Positions 28,793 through 43,706 of a stretch of DNA of 64,000 nucleotides are shown here, piece by piece. Position numbers and translations under genes: made by a program. Source of the stretch: Pseudobacteriovorax antillogorgiicola (lineage in GTDB: Bacteria > Bdellovibrionota_B > Oligoflexia > Oligoflexales > Oligoflexaceae); the NCBI RefSeq assembly GCF_900177345.1, contig NZ_FWZT01000014.1, positions 62,001 through 126,000 of the forward strand, written 5' to 3'. The first letter of the stretch is position 1; each line of letters opens with the position of its first letter. A model generated the notes under the pieces. That model did no database searches, had not been told where the DNA came from, and saw only the letters and a list, made by a program, of their open reading frames with translations.

Positions 28793-29566
28793 TTAATCAG
28801 CAGTGAGTACTTTGATCTCAATCCTACGATTTTTTCTTCGGTTGGCATCTGTGTCATTGGGAGCGATAGGTCTTTGGTCACCATATGAAATGGTATCAAT
28901 TAGGTTGGGGCTCATTCCTATTTCGCGAGTGAGTATTCGCGAAGCATTAGCTGCACGAAGAGAGCCTAGTGTATGGTTATCAAACTCACCGTTTGATTTG
29001 ACATTGTCTGTATGGCCTTCAATTAAGAGTTTGCGGCTCAGCTGGTTAAGAAGCTTACCAAGTCTTATGAAACGCTCCCGTCCCTGCCGAGAGAATCGAT
29101 AGGTACCAGATTCAAAAAAGTATGCTCCCATAAGTTGTATGGTAAACCCTCGCTCACCTGGAACTGTATTCATGGAATTTCTAAGCCCAAAATCAATGCC
29201 ATCTGATGTCATGGCAATTTGATCTAATAGCTTATCTACATGGCTCTTGTCACGGTCGATGGCGACTTTAGGATCTTCTTTAATAAGATAGCGCTTGGCG
29301 CCCTTGCTACTCGCTTCGCCGTAGTATGCCTTGAAGACGAACTCACCCTTTTTGATTTCACCAATTTCTTGATCTTTTTCGACGAAGTCCGGAACTTCGA
29401 CAAAGGATTCTCGAATCGCAGCCGTATAGCCCAAAATACGATCAGAGGTACCTACCTCTAACGAGCCATAGAGCACAACGAATGCTGCAAACAATAGGGT
29501 CATAAGATCAGCAAAGCTGACGAGCCAACCTTCGCCACCACCGGCATCTTCCTCTTCCTCTTCCAT
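28793..29566 (-). CDS. MotB/OmpA-type stator protein (second copy)
   Basis: An acidic N-terminal tail (MEEEEEDAGGGEG) leads to one membrane segment, GWLVSFADLMTLLFAAFVVL, whose Asp in FADL is the ion-binding residue of MotB/PomB. A linker of about 100 residues precedes an OmpA-like peptidoglycan-binding domain (about 145-255) with LIEGHTDNVKS, LRAANASRIL and NRRKNRRIEIKV. This is a B-type stator subunit that anchors an ion channel to the cell wall. Its ATG overlaps the stop of the preceding paralogue (TAATG), so they are coupled. It shares the membrane segment almost exactly with that paralogue while the linkers differ. Confidence 0.88.
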   Translation of the reverse strand: MEEEEEDAGGGEGWLVSFADLMTLLFAAFVVLYGSLEVGTSDRILGYTAAIRESFVEVPDFVEKDQEIGEIKKGEFVFKAYYGEASSKGAKRYLIKEDPKVAIDRDKSHVDKLLDQIAMTSDGIDFGLRNSMNTVPGERGFTIQLMGAYFFESGTYRFSRQGRERFIRLGKLLNQLSRKLLIEGHTDNVKSNGEFDNHTLGSLRAANASRILTREIGMSPNLIDTISYGDQRPIAPNDTDANRRKNRRIEIKVLTAD

Positions 29567-30360
29567 TAAAACCTACCATCATCTTGATATATGAGATGGA
29601 TCTCCACACGATTGTTCTTTAGGCGCCCATCCTTTGTTTTATGAGAGGCAATAGGTCGACTATCGCCATAAGACGTCGAATAGATGTTTTTTGGATCGAG
29701 CTTGCTGTGCTCCATCAAAACCTGTCTAACTCGCGAAGCCCTCAGGGCTCCCAGTTCGATTGGAGAAAGGCGGCCGGTTTGCGTTTCATCGGTGTGCCCT
29801 TCAACTAATATCTTAATGGCGTCACCTTTTAGCTGACTTGCAATAGATTTCAACTCTTCCATTCCTTTAGCTGATAAGGCTGCGCTGCCAGGGATAAAAA
29901 ACGCCCGCCCTAACAGATTTAATGAGAAGCCAAATTCTGTCTCAGAGACTTCTGTGGCCTGCCGAAGACTATATTGAATTCCTCGACCCTTAGAACTGCT
30001 GTCTAAGAAAACTTCGATTCTCTGCATATCATCGTTTCGGCTGCGAAGTATAGACTCTGTTCGGTTGAACTTCTTTATAGCTGGATTAAAGGTCCGTTCT
30101 CGCTTGACTTCTTCGAAAGTTATTTTGCCTTTGTACATCTCACCCTTGCGAAACTCTTCGGGGATCTCATCGGGAATTTCGATGAAGGCTTCTCGAATAG
30201 ACGATGAAACCCCTACGACTTGATCACTTTTGCCGCGAGGAGTGATACCATAGAGGACAACGAAGGCAGCAAATAAGAGTGTCATCAAGTCAGCGAAACT
30301 GACAAGCCAGCCGGAGCCTTCCTGTTCTTCTTCTTCCTCTTCCACTAATGACCTCGACAC
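29566..30360 (-). CDS. MotB/OmpA-type stator protein (first copy)
   Basis: Same plan as its downstream paralogue: Glu-rich N terminus, GWLVSFADLMTLLFAAFVVL membrane segment with the ion-coupling Asp, a long charged linker (IPDEIPEEFRKGEMYKGK...), then an OmpA-like domain with ILVEGHTDETQTG, LRASRVRQVL and LKNNRVEIHLI. It lies one gene after the MotA-like protein and its start overlaps the end of the small lipoprotein gene by 16 bases. Two B subunits beside one A subunit suggest either a heteromeric stator or two alternative stators sharing MotA. No flagellar genes are present in the window. Confidence 0.88.
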   Translation of the reverse strand: MSRSLVEEEEEEQEGSGWLVSFADLMTLLFAAFVVLYGITPRGKSDQVVGVSSSIREAFIEIPDEIPEEFRKGEMYKGKITFEEVKRERTFNPAIKKFNRTESILRSRNDDMQRIEVFLDSSSKGRGIQYSLRQATEVSETEFGFSLNLLGRAFFIPGSAALSAKGMEELKSIASQLKGDAIKILVEGHTDETQTGRLSPIELGALRASRVRQVLMEHSKLDPKNIYSTSYGDSRPIASHKTKDGRLKNNRVEIHLIYQDDGRF

Positions 30361-30644
30361 GGTTTGACACTGATGACTTTCTTGGGAAACGTGTCTGTAT
30401 ATTTAAGACTTGTATATCGAAAGGGAATCCCATTCATCTTATCAAGAAAATTAGGTTTTGCAGTAAAGTAGCAACGCTGTCTCCCGAGCTTGAAGTTTGC
30501 GACACAGATGCTTACCCAACCTTCTTCCACAGATGGATTGCCTTCTGGAAAAGGAATAAAATACCATTCGCATTGTTTTTTCCTTTGGGGGTCGCAACCT
30601 GTTAGAACAAAAATCGCAAGGCTACAAATGACGAAAAACGGCAT
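30345..30644 (-). CDS. Small lipoprotein inside the stator operon
   Basis: About 99 residues, not recognised. From ATG 30644 the N terminus is a clear type II signal (MPFFVICSLAIFVLTGCDPQ) with acylated Cys17. The mature part has further Cys residues that could form disulfides. AAAGG lies six bases before this ATG, which is itself ten bases after the motA stop; a longer frame back to 30695 would overlap motA and disrupt the signal. Its place between motA and motB-like genes suggests a periplasmic partner of the stator, by analogy to lipoproteins that bind motor complexes, but this is inference. Confidence 0.65.
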   Translation of the reverse strand: MPFFVICSLAIFVLTGCDPQRKKQCEWYFIPFPEGNPSVEEGWVSICVANFKLGRQRCYFTAKPNFLDKMNGIPFRYTSLKYTDTFPKKVISVKPCRGH

Positions 30645-30654
30645 GTTACGCCTT

Positions 30655-31407
30655 TCATTCTTCACCACTAGATTCCTTGCCCAAGTATGTCTCAAGGCGC
30701 TGTTGAATCAGCTTTGGATTGATGCCGTTTAAGATTCCGAGGACCCCAGTTTTTATGATGAGACAATTGGTAAGATGCTCACGGCTTCGATACTTGAGTT
30801 TTTTGGCTATCGGTATAAAAAACATGTTCGCCATCATTGCACCATACAGGGTAGTCACAAGAGCTACGGCAAGGCCTGGCCCGATTTTGGACGGGTCGGC
30901 GAGGTTCGCCATGATCACGATCAAACCAATCACGGTACCGATCATACCAAACGCAGGGCACGACTCTCCCATGTCATCATAAATTGCCGCTCCGTCGGCT
31001 AGATTTTTCTTCATAACCCGCATATCATCTGAAAGAATTTCATCGATGATTTCTGGAGCCGCCCCATCAACTGCAAGTCGAACTCCCTTGGCGAGAAGTG
31101 GATTTTCGATAACTTCTTTTTCTAAGGAAAGAATTGACTCTTTACGGGCCTTGTTTGCTAAGTCGATGATCTTATCGATGAGCTCTTCGGATGATTCAAC
31201 ATTGTTGAATAAAGCACCCATTCCGACTTTCACACCGCCAAGGAACACATTCAATGGCCATCTCATCATGGTAGCGGCCGCTGCCCCTCCAAGGACAATA
31301 AGAAGACTCATGAAGTCCCAATACATTAGGAGGCTTCCAGATAGAATCATAACGACCATGACCGTTATGGTTCCAATGACAGCTCCGAGTATGGTAGCTA
31401 GATCCAT
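30655..31407 (-). CDS. MotA/PomA-type stator ion-channel subunit
   Basis: 250 residues with four membrane segments (about 4-22, 30-48, 150-172, 180-205), the normal plan of MotA/PomA. MYWDFMSLLIVLGGAAAATM is the conserved TM2 region. The cytoplasmic loop has charged residues in NKARKESILSLEKEV that correspond to the rotor-contacting loop. ESCPAFGMIGTVIGLIVIMANL and GPGLAVALVTTLYGAMMANM are the conserved TM3/TM4 parts. The shape is closer to PomA/MotP (sodium-type) than to E. coli MotA, but ion choice is not proven. First gene of a four-gene operon. ATG 31407 follows AAAAGG. Confidence 0.92.
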   Translation of the reverse strand: MDLATILGAVIGTITVMVVMILSGSLLMYWDFMSLLIVLGGAAAATMMRWPLNVFLGGVKVGMGALFNNVESSEELIDKIIDLANKARKESILSLEKEVIENPLLAKGVRLAVDGAAPEIIDEILSDDMRVMKKNLADGAAIYDDMGESCPAFGMIGTVIGLIVIMANLADPSKIGPGLAVALVTTLYGAMMANMFFIPIAKKLKYRSREHLTNCLIIKTGVLGILNGINPKLIQQRLETYLGKESSGEE

Positions 31408-36878: not shown

Positions 36879-37574
36879 ATGAAACTCGTAAGCAAATTGC
36901 TTGGCTCCTTTACCATTCTCCTAGGTGGATGGCTTGTCTCTCCCCAGCCCTTAATGGCTCTCGATCTCAAGCCAGACGAAATTCGTGGGGAAAAGGTCAC
37001 CAATCCCGTGAGTATTCTTCAGAATCGATATTTTTTGAAGTCTTTTCGTCCTGAAGTTGGTTTTTCGGCAGGATCCTTTGTGAACGAAGCGTATACCGAC
37101 ACCATTCTATGGGGGTATCGAACCTCGATGTTCATCAATGAGTGGCTTGGCTTCGAACTCCAAGCGATTCAAACCAGCGTTTCAGATTCCGATGATCGCA
37201 AGGCCTTGAACCAGCTAAAGTATCAGAAAATCGGTACCACAGATGTCGTCAGCCCTGATCCGGAAATCAACAGGATTCATGGTAGTCAAGATGTTAATGT
37301 GATTGTGGCGCCATTCTACGGCAAGCTCAACTTGATCGACTCAGTTATCATATATTCCGACCTATACATGGCAGCAGGAGTTTCAAAAGTTGATACTGAT
37401 CAGGGAGAGCTTAATAGCTTCTCGTGGGCTGCTGGACAAAGATTTTATTGGAAGAAAAGTATCTCATTCCGCTTCGAAGTTCGGGATCGCATCTATCAGG
37501 AAACTCGCTCAGACGAAGACTATACGCGACACGCCTACAGTATCGATTTAGGAATGAGCTACTTTCTTTTTTAG
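36879..37574 (+). CDS. Outer-membrane beta-barrel protein, GltA/GltB-like
   Basis: Signal peptide (MKLVSKLLGSFTILLGGWLV, cleavage near LMALD) and then alternating strands ending in an aromatic residue (MSYFLF), the hallmark of an outer-membrane barrel. Elements such as NRYFLKSFRPEVG near the N terminus and EVRDRIYQE near the C terminus recall the short barrel family found with Myxococcus and Bdellovibrio gliding genes (GltA, GltB). About 8 strands fit 205 mature residues. AGAGGAAAG precedes the ATG. First gene of a five-gene operon; the next start is nine bases beyond its stop. Barrel call is good; the Glt link rests on operon content. Confidence 0.75.
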   Translation: MKLVSKLLGSFTILLGGWLVSPQPLMALDLKPDEIRGEKVTNPVSILQNRYFLKSFRPEVGFSAGSFVNEAYTDTILWGYRTSMFINEWLGFELQAIQTSVSDSDDRKALNQLKYQKIGTTDVVSPDPEINRIHGSQDVNVIVAPFYGKLNLIDSVIIYSDLYMAAGVSKVDTDQGELNSFSWAAGQRFYWKKSISFRFEVRDRIYQETRSDEDYTRHAYSIDLGMSYFLF

Positions 37575-37583
37575 AGGTTACCT

Positions 37584-39158
37584 ATGTGTCTAAGGTTACT
37601 TTATATTCTGCTTGTCATTGGTCTTTCGGGGCTCAATACGAGTTCTGTGTTCGCCAAAAAAAAGCAGCGTCAGAATTCGTTTGATGACAAGGTTGAAGAT
37701 ACGATTCAAGCGTATCGTCGTGGCGAAAACTCAGGAAAGAAAACCTGGGTCCTATTGAATCGAATGGCAAAAAACTACAGTAAGATGTCACCTGCAGCGA
37801 TCAGTAGAGTGAAAGCGGTTCAAGCTCAGCTTCTCGCTAATAATGGCTATCCAATTTTGGCCTCCCTTTACTCATCAGAGAGCATCATTATCAGCAACAA
37901 GCCACTCGACAAGGTTAATACCACCACCTGGAAAATTCTCGCGAAAGCTAGTGAGGATGAGCCTATTGAATACGTACTGGATCGCCTTGCGCTGAAGTAC
38001 ATGGCAATGAACGAAAATCCTAGGTTCTTCGAAAACGATTGGAATTACTATGTTGCCTCTGCCCTTCTGAACAAAGATAAGGTGATGTTAGCTCGGGAAT
38101 ACTTTCGGAAACTTAAGATGCAGGATCGATTCTACCTTCCTGCGCAGTATCAGATTGCGATTATCAATATTGAACATGGGGCTTATACTGATGCCGAGGC
38201 TCGTTTGAAGGCGATTCTCAGCAGCGCATCACAGAAAGTATCTAGCTTGTCCGATGAAAAAAAGCAGACCATGATTAACTATGCTCACATGGCTCTGGCC
38301 AGAATGTATTATGAGCAAAAGAAGTTTATTCGCTCGGCTTATCACTATCGCAAAATTCCGAAGACATCACTTCTGTTTTACGACTCCTTGTTCGAGCAGT
38401 CTTGGGCACTGTTCATGTCCGGCCGACCCAAGCACGCGCTAGGTTCGCTATACGGCGCCCATTCCCCCTACTTTAGAAGTGTCTACAACCCAGAAAGTAA
38501 GATTCTAGAGTCTATGGTCTACTTTTGGATGTGTCGCTATGATGAAGCCCGCAATGCCCTTGCTGATTTTGCTGAGCAGCATGCAGAAGCGGTCGATGGC
38601 CTAAAGTCATTTCTTGAAAGGCAAAAGCTAACTCCTGAAACGACCTACCAAGTATTTGAAAATCTGATCAGTGATGTTTCAAGTGCTTCCCTAGGAATTT
38701 CAAGACAGGTTCTTAAGACGGCCGCAGAACGAGACGCGATGCTATTGATTCGTAATCAGTATGCTAGTGTTCTTGAAGAACTTAATCGAGTGAACACCAA
38801 GGGCGTTTTTGGAATGCAAAAAGGAACCTCTGTACTTACTGGTCGTTTAGAAGATCTGGCCTTAAATATTCGCAATGAGTTAGGCGGTATCTATTTGAAA
38901 GAACTTCGCTATCTCGATGAGCACTTTGCTGAACTTTATACACAAGCCCAGTTCCTATATTTGGAGCTGCTTATGGGGCAAAAAGAACACCTACTTGGTC
39001 GTGAGTTACATGCGGACAATAAGGTCCGTAATGTGGCCGATATTCGAAAGATGAAAACCTGGAGTGAAAAGACCCAGTCTTGGATGGATGATAAGTTTGA
39101 GTACTGGTGGGACGAAGTAGGTTATCAAATCATCGATGTCGATCCTTTATGTAATTGA
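37584..39158 (+). CDS. Exported TPR protein, GltC-like
   Basis: 524 residues with a cleavable signal (LLYILLVIGLSGLN, cleavage near VFAKK) and helical repeats throughout (VASALLNKDKVMLAREYFRKL, MALARMYYEQKKFIRSAYHY as separate units). No lipobox Cys at the cleavage site, so it is periplasmic. The C terminus, with FEYWWDEVGYQIIDVDPLC, is a distinctive conserved end of this family rather than a TPR. In Myxococcus the periplasmic TPR protein GltC works beside the barrels GltA/B; the same neighbourhood here supports this name, with moderate confidence. AGAGG precedes ATG 37584. Confidence 0.65.
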   Translation: MCLRLLYILLVIGLSGLNTSSVFAKKKQRQNSFDDKVEDTIQAYRRGENSGKKTWVLLNRMAKNYSKMSPAAISRVKAVQAQLLANNGYPILASLYSSESIIISNKPLDKVNTTTWKILAKASEDEPIEYVLDRLALKYMAMNENPRFFENDWNYYVASALLNKDKVMLAREYFRKLKMQDRFYLPAQYQIAIINIEHGAYTDAEARLKAILSSASQKVSSLSDEKKQTMINYAHMALARMYYEQKKFIRSAYHYRKIPKTSLLFYDSLFEQSWALFMSGRPKHALGSLYGAHSPYFRSVYNPESKILESMVYFWMCRYDEARNALADFAEQHAEAVDGLKSFLERQKLTPETTYQVFENLISDVSSASLGISRQVLKTAAERDAMLLIRNQYASVLEELNRVNTKGVFGMQKGTSVLTGRLEDLALNIRNELGGIYLKELRYLDEHFAELYTQAQFLYLELLMGQKEHLLGRELHADNKVRNVADIRKMKTWSEKTQSWMDDKFEYWWDEVGYQIIDVDPLCN

Positions 39159-39176
39159 GGAAGGAATCAAAAGTAA

Positions 39177-42100
39177 ATGTTGTTGCTCAAAAGAAAATCA
39201 ATTGTTTTCCTTATCGCACTCCTGACTTGCACTCCTGTTCTTCATGGGAAAACTAACAAAAAGAATCGGAAGGCTCCTGATGCTGAGCAGTTAGATAAAT
39301 ACTTAGCGACGGGCAATACTAAGAACGCCGCTGATGAGGCGTTGCAAAAAGCTGATGACTTGCGGCTTAAAACTATCGAATCCATCAAGAATTTGACAAA
39401 GGCCAAGATGAGAGATGAGCAGAAATTTGAGCTTTTCTTGCGCCTTGGCGAACTCTATTCAGAGCGTCACGACTACATCCGCGAGTTAGAGATCCGGGAG
39501 TACGAGCGTAAACATGACCGATGGATGAAGACTAAAAAGGGCCGAGAGCCCAAGCTTACCTACAAACGATCAAAAGCTATGCTCTATAAGGCGGTTGAAG
39601 CTTTCAGAAAATTGATCGCTGACTATCCACGCCACCCACGCAGTGATGCTGCCATGTTTTCATTAGCGAAAACACTCCTGCGACTTGAAAACGATAATTC
39701 GATGCTCTTCTTTAAGCAGTTGATTCAAAAATACCCTAACTCACAGTATCTTCCAGAAGCCTATCTTGCATTAGGGGAACACTACTTTTACAAGCAGAAT
39801 TTCAACCTTGCACAAAAATACTATCAGTCAGTACTGAAGTACAAAAATTCTAGGGTTTATACCTATGGTGTTTATAAGCTTGGTTGGACGTTTTTCAATC
39901 AATCAACAGGAATGGATAACAAGAGAAAAGCTGTTGATAAAGCGATTGCTGCTTTTATGCTTGTTGTAAAGCTCTCAGAGAGAGATAAGGGGAAAGTAGG
40001 GGGCTTTGATCTCAAGCAAGAGGCTATCAACGATCTCATTATGGTATTCGCAGAGAACCAAAGGACCAATCAGGCATTAAATTACTTTAAGAAAATTGGT
40101 GAGAACAAAGCATTTTACGACATGCTGGAGCGTATGGGAAATCTTTATGTTGAAAATGGCGAGGCAGACAAAGCCATCAAGATTTTTAATCGACTTCTAC
40201 GGGAGGCTCCAACACGTGAACGGAATCCTGAGATCTATCTTACCTTGGTCGCCATACACGATAGCCGTGGCAATCTAAAAGACGTTGTTAGAAATCTTGA
40301 AGCTATGGAGAACCTTTATGTTAAGGATAGTGTTTGGACTAGAGCAAACCAACAAGATAAGGAAGCTGTTAAGAAAGCAGAAGAGAAGACTAAAAAGAAC
40401 ATTCATCGATACGGGACGCTCTATCACAATAAAGGTATGAAAGGCGATAAAAAGCCATATCTAATCGCAGCTCTGGCACTTTACAATCTCTATCTAAATA
40501 GTTTTCCGAAGGCTGATGAAGCCTACGAACTACGCTATTATCTGGCAGAAATTCACTTTCACTTTGGCAACTTTGATAAGGCTGCCGATGAATATTACAT
40601 AGTATCTCAAGAAGATGGTAAGTATAGACATAAATCAGCCGTGTCTGCAGTTGCGGCAATGAAGAAGATTGATGATAAGCAGAAATATGCAAAGCTACCA
40701 CCTCTAGGCCAAGTGAATAAGCCAATGGGAGTTCCCAAGGTAAAAGTAAAGTACATCAAGATGCTCGACAACTTCGTGAAACTCCTTCCGGGGGATAAAC
40801 AAGGTCACCCGATGAGATATACTGCTGCCTTCACACTATTTGAATATGGTCATTACAAGGACTCACTCGGTCGCTTTGAATCGATTGTCAAAGATATACC
40901 TAAAACGAAACAAGGGAAGTCCTCTGTTAAGATGATCTTAGGATACTATACAGAGAAGAAGCAGTGGGATGAACTGATTGCAGTTTGTCGAGAGTTTCTG
41001 GCAAATAAAAATATTATCAATTCCAAGTTGCGGATTGATTTACAGCGAACTCTTCGTGATAGCCTCTTTGGGCAGGCCGTGCGCTATAGCAAGCAGAGAA
41101 AGTTCTCAGACTCGGCGAAAGCCTTTGTGGCTTATCAAGAGGAATTTCCTAAAGCAAAAAATGCCGATGATGCGCTATATAACGCAACACTCAATTACTA
41201 CAAAGATGGTAAGGTAGAGGATGCCATCAGTAAGGGTAAGAAGCTTCTACAGGCCTATCCGCGATCGAAGCATGTGAAAACTACAGTCTTGGATATTGCT
41301 CAGTCCCATGAAGCCTTAGCCGATTTTAAAGATGCAGCGATATACTTCGAGAAGTTTGCTAAGTCTTATCCAAAAGACAAAGAGTCAAGAGTGACACTTT
41401 ATAATGCAGCTACATTGAATAAAGGTTTAAAACAGAATCAAGAAGCTATAAGCCTTTACAAACGATACATTAAGTTTTATCCCAAGGATAAGTTAGCCCG
41501 GGATGCTCTCTACGAAATAGCGGATCTCTACGAAAAAGAGAAAAATTACAATCAAGCAGTTCGTTATTTTCAGAAACATGCATGGCAGCATGATGTAAAT
41601 TCAGAGACCTACGTTCATTCCATGGCACGGTCAGCAGAGATTCAATACAACCATGGCAATCGGCCTGGCGGTATGAAGCTCTTTGCAAAACTGTACGATA
41701 AGCTGATACAAAAAGACTCACCACCGGCATTTGATGCTAGGCGAATCATAGCCCGAGCAATGTTCAATGATCTCAATCGGGATTTTACAAAATTCCAGGC
41801 TATGGGAATTAGCAGCGCGAAGAAAATAGAAAGGGATGTAAAGTTCAAGCAGAATCGTTTGAAATCGATTGTGTCCCAGTATCAGAAAGTTATTGATCTA
41901 GCCAGCGGTGAATACACTGTAGCATCCCTGTATCGAGTTGCAGAGATGCATGAAAATTTCGCAGATGAGCTGTTGTCGGCACCAGCACCCAAAGGGGCCA
42001 GCCAACTCGAAATTGACCAGTATCGATCCTCCATCGAAAAAGTCGCATTTCCCTTGAAAGAGGAAGCCGAGAAATACTATGAGATGTCTTATGTTAGGTC

Positions 42101-42263
42101 GAAAGAAGTTCAGACATTTACAAACTGGACTCGTCTTGCCCGAGCAAAGATGTCCATCATCAACGAAGAAAAGTACCCCTTAGTTAACGAGCGAAACGTC
42201 GAAGCAAGCTATCTGTCCCACCAGCTTCTCTGGCAAGAAGAAGTGGCTCAGTTAGGAAATTAG
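39177..42263 (+). CDS. Large exported TPR protein, GltD (AgnA)-like
   Basis: 1028 residues, the longest gene in the window. A signal peptide (residues about 8-24, FLIALLTCTPVLHG) is followed by an acidic/basic region and more than a dozen TPR or TPR-like units, for example AYLALGEHYFYKQNFNLAQK and DALYEIADLYEKEKNYNQAVRY (each a separate unit). It is rich in Lys and Tyr. The pattern LGELYSERHDY... with repeated Y-P spaced units matches the large periplasmic TPR protein of the Glt cluster. It would be a long solenoid that links envelope layers. AGGAAGG precedes the ATG, 18 bases after the previous stop. Confidence 0.65.
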   Translation: MLLLKRKSIVFLIALLTCTPVLHGKTNKKNRKAPDAEQLDKYLATGNTKNAADEALQKADDLRLKTIESIKNLTKAKMRDEQKFELFLRLGELYSERHDYIRELEIREYERKHDRWMKTKKGREPKLTYKRSKAMLYKAVEAFRKLIADYPRHPRSDAAMFSLAKTLLRLENDNSMLFFKQLIQKYPNSQYLPEAYLALGEHYFYKQNFNLAQKYYQSVLKYKNSRVYTYGVYKLGWTFFNQSTGMDNKRKAVDKAIAAFMLVVKLSERDKGKVGGFDLKQEAINDLIMVFAENQRTNQALNYFKKIGENKAFYDMLERMGNLYVENGEADKAIKIFNRLLREAPTRERNPEIYLTLVAIHDSRGNLKDVVRNLEAMENLYVKDSVWTRANQQDKEAVKKAEEKTKKNIHRYGTLYHNKGMKGDKKPYLIAALALYNLYLNSFPKADEAYELRYYLAEIHFHFGNFDKAADEYYIVSQEDGKYRHKSAVSAVAAMKKIDDKQKYAKLPPLGQVNKPMGVPKVKVKYIKMLDNFVKLLPGDKQGHPMRYTAAFTLFEYGHYKDSLGRFESIVKDIPKTKQGKSSVKMILGYYTEKKQWDELIAVCREFLANKNIINSKLRIDLQRTLRDSLFGQAVRYSKQRKFSDSAKAFVAYQEEFPKAKNADDALYNATLNYYKDGKVEDAISKGKKLLQAYPRSKHVKTTVLDIAQSHEALADFKDAAIYFEKFAKSYPKDKESRVTLYNAATLNKGLKQNQEAISLYKRYIKFYPKDKLARDALYEIADLYEKEKNYNQAVRYFQKHAWQHDVNSETYVHSMARSAEIQYNHGNRPGGMKLFAKLYDKLIQKDSPPAFDARRIIARAMFNDLNRDFTKFQAMGISSAKKIERDVKFKQNRLKSIVSQYQKVIDLASGEYTVASLYRVAEMHENFADELLSAPAPKGASQLEIDQYRSSIEKVAFPLKEEAEKYYEMSYVRSKEVQTFTNWTRLARAKMSIINEEKYPLVNERNVEASYLSHQLLWQEEVAQLGN

Positions 42264-42273
42264 GGAGGGTGTA

Positions 42274-43449
42274 ATGAAGTTATTGAAGTCCATATGCATA
42301 CTTGGCTTGGGAGTGCTGGCCTCCTCCTGTCAAACGACGAGCTATATTGCGAATGTCGATAAGTCTCGCAAGCAGGTAGAGGTTCAAAGTCAATCAGATG
42401 ATGGCAGTGCGGTCTATGCTCTCCATAAGAACGGAATTCTGAATGATGTTCGTTCAAATCTAAAAACAAGTCTCAAAGAGAATATTAAGGATGTGAAGTC
42501 CTTACTCAATTTGTCACAAGTCTATCTTGCCCAAGGTAACTACAAAAAAGCTGAAGACTTCTGTCGCCGAGCACTTCGAAGAGATTTGAAGAACCAAGAT
42601 GCGAAGCTCATCCTGGCTCAAATCTACTATCGCAGAGGCTACACGGATATGACTGAAATTATCCTCAATAGCATGGGCCGGGCTGCAGAAAAGAATAGTA
42701 CAGCCTTGAATCTGAAGGCTTTGGTGGCTCTCAAAAACGATCGGCCAGCCTACGCCATGAACTTTTTCAAGCAATCGCTTAAATACAATCCAGGAGATAT
42801 TGCAACTAGAATGAATCTAGGTGTGCTCTATGTTTACTACAGGCAGGTGGATGCGGCCTCAGTACAGTTTGAGAGAGTCCTAAAGTCAATGCCTGATCAT
42901 GTTGATGCCAAACTTCATCTAGGAATCATAAAGGCATCACGGGGGCAGTACGAACAAGCTTCAGACTTATACAAAGATGTACTGGATGTTGATCCTGGCA
43001 ATGCTTTAGCCACATACAACCTTGCTGTTTTAGCGGAAAAGCAAAAGGACTATGATGATTCACTTTCACATTTGAAGAGCTACCTTTCCTCGAACTATGC
43101 CAAGCGCCAAGACAACAAGGAAGTATTTGCTATGATCGAGAGACTCCGAGCTAAAAAAGATATGATGGGAGAAACAGTGTCAGACTCTGAGATCCAAGAA
43201 ATGAGTGCTCAGTTGGATCAACCTATGACGAAAAACGCGGCCTTGTCGGAAGATGAAGATGTCCTAAAAGAAGTAGAGAGACCTAAAGCAAAGAGGCCTG
43301 CTATCCAGAAGGAGGCCAATCCTCCATCTCAAGCCTCAAGGCCAAAAGTTAACGCTACCCCCAAACAAGAGAAGAAAAAAGAAGAACCGAAGCCTCCCGC
43401 ATATAGTGGAGACGATATTGAATCACTTGAAAAGGCGTTAATAGAATGA
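42274..43449 (+). CDS. TPR lipoprotein, GltE (AglT)-like
   Basis: A type II signal with lipobox ASSC (Cys19) marks an outer-membrane lipoprotein. Residues about 65-285 form six or more canonical TPRs (LLNLSQVYLAQGNYKKAEDF, AKLILAQIYYRRGYTDM, ATYNLAVLAEKQKDYDDS). The last 100 residues are low-complexity and rich in Lys, Pro and Glu. AglT/GltE of Myxococcus is a TPR lipoprotein of similar size and is required for gliding; order and architecture agree. AGGGAGGG precedes the ATG. Its stop overlaps the start of the next gene (ATGA). Confidence 0.68.
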   Translation: MKLLKSICILGLGVLASSCQTTSYIANVDKSRKQVEVQSQSDDGSAVYALHKNGILNDVRSNLKTSLKENIKDVKSLLNLSQVYLAQGNYKKAEDFCRRALRRDLKNQDAKLILAQIYYRRGYTDMTEIILNSMGRAAEKNSTALNLKALVALKNDRPAYAMNFFKQSLKYNPGDIATRMNLGVLYVYYRQVDAASVQFERVLKSMPDHVDAKLHLGIIKASRGQYEQASDLYKDVLDVDPGNALATYNLAVLAEKQKDYDDSLSHLKSYLSSNYAKRQDNKEVFAMIERLRAKKDMMGETVSDSEIQEMSAQLDQPMTKNAALSEDEDVLKEVERPKAKRPAIQKEANPPSQASRPKVNATPKQEKKKEEPKPPAYSGDDIESLEKALIE

Positions 43450-43706
43450 AACAAACTCTGATATTACTTAGCATCTTCTTCGCGGCAGAAGGCCTTGCCC
43501 AAGACAAAGAAGATCAAAAGATCGAAAAGTTTGTCACCGAGATGGACTTTGACTCAGCGTCCATCGATGGCAAGATGAAGGCGCCCTCTGGGTTTTTTCT
43601 TCAAGGCCGTAATAAGCAAAGCCTTCAATCGATGGTGCAACTGCGCTCCAATTTTCGTGATCGACTGAGAAACTCAAAGGCGGCTGTGAAAGCTATTGTT
43701 AAGTAA
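43446..43706 (+). CDS. Short exported protein, possibly CglF/GltF-like
   Basis: 86 residues: a signal peptide (MKQTLILLSIFFAAEGLAQ) and a compact mature part with DGKMKAPSGFFLQGR...LRSNFRDRL. The pattern Pro-Ser-Gly, aromatic, Arg, then a Leu-Arg-x-Asn-Phe helix recalls short exported gliding proteins such as CglF, but this is a by-eye match of a small protein. Translation is coupled to the TPR lipoprotein gene through an ATGA overlap. It ends the operon and its stop overlaps the convergent hutF gene by eight bases. Confidence 0.6.
   Translation: MKQTLILLSIFFAAEGLAQDKEDQKIEKFVTEMDFDSASIDGKMKAPSGFFLQGRNKQSLQSMVQLRSNFRDRLRNSKAAVKAIVK

Follow-up and report, generated by a model that had tools for sequence, protein, structure and literature searches.

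A five-gene operon lies at positions 36879-43706 (+) of a 64,000-nucleotide stretch (the window) of the Pseudobacteriovorax antillogorgiicola genome (NCBI RefSeq assembly GCF_900177345.1, contig NZ_FWZT01000014.1, positions 62,001 to 126,000, forward strand). Judged by sequence, the five genes are the outer-envelope gene set of a Glt-type machine in Glt order (barrel, GltC, GltD, GltE, GltF), and profiles, GltD homology, and gene order all support the gene types and order that an earlier note on this DNA had proposed, including its CglF/GltF piece. The open reading frames (ORFs) encode 231, 524, 1028, 391, and 86 amino acids (aa); the first four are separated by 9, 18, and 10 bp and the last two overlap by 4 bp, which bears out the tight, one-strand packing described in that note. 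Hereafter, W denotes the operon type found here and C the operon type of a second locus, on contig C21 of the same genome.

W-barrel (ORF1; 36879-37574, +; 231 aa) carries a signal peptide, belongs to the GltA/GltB (OMP_myx_plus) family, and is predicted to fold into an outer-membrane beta-barrel of 8 strands. W-GltC (ORF2; 37584-39158, +; 524 aa) is an exported tetratricopeptide repeat (TPR) protein of the GltC family, and W-GltD (ORF3; 39177-42263, +; 1028 aa) is an exported, all-helical TPR solenoid. W-GltE (ORF4; 42274-43449, +; 391 aa) is a TPR lipoprotein with lipid attachment predicted at Cys19, and W-CglF (ORF5; 43446-43706, +; 86 aa) is a small exported protein; CglF and GltF are one protein (PMC4488436).

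Against NCBIfam, W-barrel scored 97 bits with TIGR04565 (OMP_myx_plus; cut-off, 60), and its AlphaFold model (pLDDT, 84) has 8 strands and PDB likenesses to OmpA, OprF, and OmpW, which supports the barrel call. The equivalog cut-offs for GltC, GltE, and CglF were reached by none of the W proteins: W-GltC scored 116 bits with NF033756 (E value, 2e-33; cut-off, 450), W-GltE scored 53 bits with NF033758 (cut-off, 225; generic TPR models score higher), and W-CglF scored 38 bits with NF033764 (cut-off, 90). For ORF3, NCBIfam returned no GltD model and matched generic TPR models only (YbgF, BamD). The profile searches suggested in the earlier note thus separated the barrel, above its cut-off, from the other four proteins. 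By profile alone, the 1028-aa protein would better fit a Bam-like or secretion family, which that note had named as an outcome against a Glt identity, but homology and gene order overrule the profiles and assign ORF3 to the GltD type: W-GltD shares 25% identity with the C21 GltD across ~920 aa and is also homologous to the GltD of loci whose GltC exceeds the cut-off. A Bam, Tol-Pal, or type IX secretion system (T9SS) identity (BamD, YbgF/CpoB, PorW) was rejected, with those matches limited to TPR stretches and the full-length homology being to GltD. The AlphaFold model of W-GltD is an all-helical solenoid of ~44 helices (mean pLDDT, 86). W-GltC and C-type GltC have common conserved columns (e.g., C317 and a C-terminal E-x-W-x-D-E), and in W-GltE orthologues the signal sequence has a Cys close to its end, often followed by Q/K/S-T-T.

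The motor genes and GltG are absent beside the W operon and present elsewhere in the assembly (7.28 Mb; 96.9% complete). Contig C21 (locus L007) encodes AglR (MotA_ExbB), two ExbD-type proteins (AglQ/S), a barrel, GltC, GltD, GltE, and a full-length GltG (719 aa; FHA and TonB-C domains; NF033760, 167 bits, under the cut-off of 650). The earlier statement that the inner-membrane Glt parts are missing therefore holds for the surroundings of the operon and fails for the genome, where its proposed search for gltG succeeded; a stripped version of the machine is at odds with a full paralogous locus, complete with AglRQS and GltG, in the same cell. The C21 locus corresponds to the core complex described by Luciano et al. 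2011 (AglRQS, GltC, GltD, GltE, and GltG; PMC3169522), to which the W operon is the complement, without AglRQS and GltG and with GltF. On contig C9, a standalone 118-aa CglF/GltF-like protein (L096:9101-9457), of a kind that most relatives also hold as unlinked copies, is probably the GltF of the C21 machine; standalone CglF in C genomes ruled out loss of GltF from the C machine. A third TIGR04565-family barrel, above the cut-off, is encoded on contig C23 (63233-63934, -) and is a possible second barrel partner. The gliding use raised in the earlier note is unsupported: the companion search for mglA, made with PF00025 (MglA/Arf) as the sole profile, gave no match to an MglA-like GTPase in this 96.9% complete genome.

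W-GltC was searched against 58 genomes of the phylum, and gene maps were drawn from DNA fetched around the loci. Hits split into two clearly distinct groups, W and C. The 24 complete W loci represent many families and two orders. Every one of them reads barrel-GltC-GltD-GltE-CglF, a recurrence beyond chance, and their fetched DNA held no AglR/Q/S or GltG. The C loci read AglR-Q-S-barrel-GltC-GltD-GltE-GltG, with GltF elsewhere. No sixth gene beside W is conserved across families, which ruled out a hidden additional member. By GltC, W is present in 34 of the 58 genomes, none of which was shown to lack C (G012 unverified); GltG was found in 32/32 W genomes sampled, and 15 further genomes have C without W. 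Full-length GltG occurs once per genome, within the C locus where examined (weak further matches are not all listed), and no second GltG serving W was found. In 56 genomes searched with the CglF profile, two copies were found in 28 of the 32 with both modules (3, 1, 1, and 0 in the other four), one in 14/15 C-only genomes, and none in the nine where neither module was found. CglF number thus tracks the modules: each of them has a GltF to itself, while motor and GltG are present only once. Genus g30 (family f13; G050-G057) yielded no W, C, CglF, or full-length GltG, apparently a lineage-wide loss.

W and C form separate clades in the GltC tree (SH-aLRT, 100 and 99, respectively). In the GltD tree, C is again a single clade, and the W proteins group in a single clade with an isolated GltD-like protein encoded in this genome (665 aa; contig C38, L008:11343-13340, -), which has no other Glt neighbours and whose branch, next to the W GltDs, is very long. 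Both trees were quick, with long branches, and their deeper branching order is uncertain. Since Oligoflexales and a Silvanigrellales-type family occur in both the W and the C clades, the two modules predate the split of these two orders. Both clades are old and have an equal species spread, which ruled out a recent origin of W by copying of the C21 locus, and the trees do not support direct orthology between W and the Glt set of myxobacteria. In other phyla (Myxococcota, Bdellovibrio-like genomes, Spirochaetales/UBP6 rumen metagenome-assembled genomes [MAGs], and Sumerlaeota), GltF directly precedes GltG in the same operon. This adjacency and the separate old clades suggest that W is a motorless paralogue of derived origin and not a minimal ancestral form, contrary to the ancestral version entertained in the earlier note. 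The rumen UBP6, Spirochaetales-labelled, and Sumerlaeota MAGs (L150-L162, L164, L166-L168, and L170) mostly carry a complete barrel-GltC-D-E-F-G operon, well beyond the usually cited hosts. The Bdellovibrio-like loci (L140, L141, and L144) read barrel-GltC-GltD-CglF-GltG, with no separate GltE detected.

Among known systems, Myxococcus xanthus Agl-Glt (gltBAC and gltD-J clusters, aglRQS) has the same barrel-GltC-GltD-GltE-GltF types and order as W, and its outer part is likewise encoded away from the motor genes. W differs in its single barrel, the lack of an adjacent GltG, scores far under the NCBIfam equivalog cut-offs, and its separate old clade, and the host genome differs in lacking the PF00025 match. 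The M. xanthus Nfs spore-coat complex (nfsA-H) is a Glt paralogue set without a motor of its own that uses AglRQS (PMC3858216); W is also motorless, with AglRQS elsewhere in the genome. Nfs, however, has its own NfsG and NfsH and is a recent duplication (PMC3858216), whereas W predates the split of two orders. In Bdellovibrio, four tonB/agl operons (Bd0412-0420, Bd0828-0838, Bd1473-1483, and Bd2368-2377) likewise place several paralogous Glt-type sets in one genome of a predatory lineage, but they are described as tonB-like/agl, that is, with motor or transducer homologues (PMC2797640), neither of which W has. GltH-K have been reported absent from Bdellovibrio (PMC3169522).

A TonB-box-like periplasmic segment of the W barrel (VSILQNRYFLKSFRPE; 37008-37055, +; residues 44-59) lies directly before strand 1, with the peptide VSILQNRYFLKS in the W barrel and EIRVIRPRFFNK in the C barrel. 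In the barrel alignment it reads LQNR[YF]F-x-K-xx-R-P-E in W, VIRP[RK][YF]F-x-K in C, and VQKKxF-x-K-xx-R-x-E in other phyla; no other 13-residue patch is as conserved in the W barrels, and the same holds for the equivalent place in the C barrels. GltA/GltB have been proposed as TonB box carriers meeting GltG (PMC5349195), and the segment is a candidate docking strand for the TonB-C domain of GltG. A static, motor-independent outer-membrane scaffold (barrel, solenoid, and lipoprotein) that serves envelope stability or the display of a surface protein, its link to the GltG motor lost, would agree with W loci that never hold GltG or motor genes and with the long separate branches of W GltC and GltD. 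We consider such a scaffold unlikely, given that W keeps GltF and this segment and was not seen without the motor locus.

On balance, we lean toward the W operon encoding an additional outer-envelope module of Glt/Nfs class that has no motor of its own and is driven by a shared AglRQS-GltG motor. Barrel, GltC, and GltE would be located in or at the outer membrane, with the GltD solenoid crossing the periplasmic distance and GltF bridging toward the inner membrane. AglRQS and the proton motive force would energise the single GltG, whose TonB-C domain would engage the TonB-box-like segment of either barrel. One motor might then drive two interchangeable outer modules, as in Myxococcus, where AglRQS drives Glt and Nfs via GltG/NfsG (PMC3858216). 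W was seen solely in the company of C, as would be expected if it depended on the C motor.

Several observations weigh against a motor shared between W and C. Their co-occurrence is phylogenetically non-independent, and the genomes without C are mostly of one genus. Nfs, as precedent, carries its own G protein and W does not, and the W segment (LQNR[YF]F) is unlike that of C (VIRP[RK][YF]F), so a single GltG may not bind both. With 18 MotA/ExbB-family matches in the genome, a different motor could also serve W: another ion motor and TonB-C transducer, encoded away from the C locus, would find a potential component in a further TonB-C protein (~550 aa) on contig C1, and the unlinked GltF of the C module indicates that unlinked parts are normal here. 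C1-type TonB-C proteins are, however, also present in the g30 genomes that lack W and C and so do not track W, and we regard a separate motor as quite unlikely. The two modules might instead build a single hetero-complex, W giving part of the outer ring and C the remainder, in the manner of the GltA/GltB pairing in Myxococcus. Each operon here has one barrel against mostly two adjacent barrels in the myxobacterial loci examined, GltA and GltB stabilise each other (PMC4488436), and the coexistence of the two operons is older than the divergence of the orders; duplication in W nonetheless extends beyond the barrel to C, D, E, and F, and the 15 genomes with C alone do without W, which makes a joint ring very improbable.

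Under the shared-motor reading, surface transport or contact is a more likely task for W than secretion, and the module may act on an adhesin, on polysaccharide, or in prey contact at the surface. By analogy, contact with other cells would be a sensible alternative to gliding, because the Bdellovibrio AglS (Bd0838) is required for prey attachment (PMC6561027) and the four Bdellovibrio operons are under differing regulation (PMC2797640). Extended to the whole phylum, the proposal is more tentative, and we put it at somewhat less than an even chance: one AglRQS-GltG motor would power two permanent, interchangeable outer modules, the first sharing its locus with the motor genes and the second a motorless five-gene cartridge docking via a TonB-box-like barrel strand. 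If true, this would be an envelope motor with swappable surface heads, far older than, or independent of, the Glt/Nfs switch of Myxococcus. No description of Glt-type sets in Oligoflexia was found in the open-licence papers searched; the parts are known, and the motorless, G-less, phylum-wide module and the arrangement of one motor with two heads appear new. They bear on how Glt-type machines carry force to the cell surface from a proton motor in the inner membrane, and on why gliding is not known from most bacteria that have the core complex. An outer module that naturally lacks a motor, variably present among close relatives that all keep the motor, points to a "head" separable from the "engine." Which parts decide the task can then be tested by comparison and by deleting genes, in a lineage allied with predatory bacteria.

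The operon is flanked upstream by a proline dehydrogenase-like ORF and downstream by a HutF-like ORF in convergent orientation, the end of which shares 8 bp with CglF (both names were read directly from the sequence). Scans for sigma70 promoters and terminators gave results at chance level. Elsewhere in the window, a flagellar-type stator set with a MotB duplication is predicted at 28793-31407 (-): after the MotA-like protein (30655-31407) come two MotB-like proteins in tandem, and both of them have MotB plug and OmpA-type domains.
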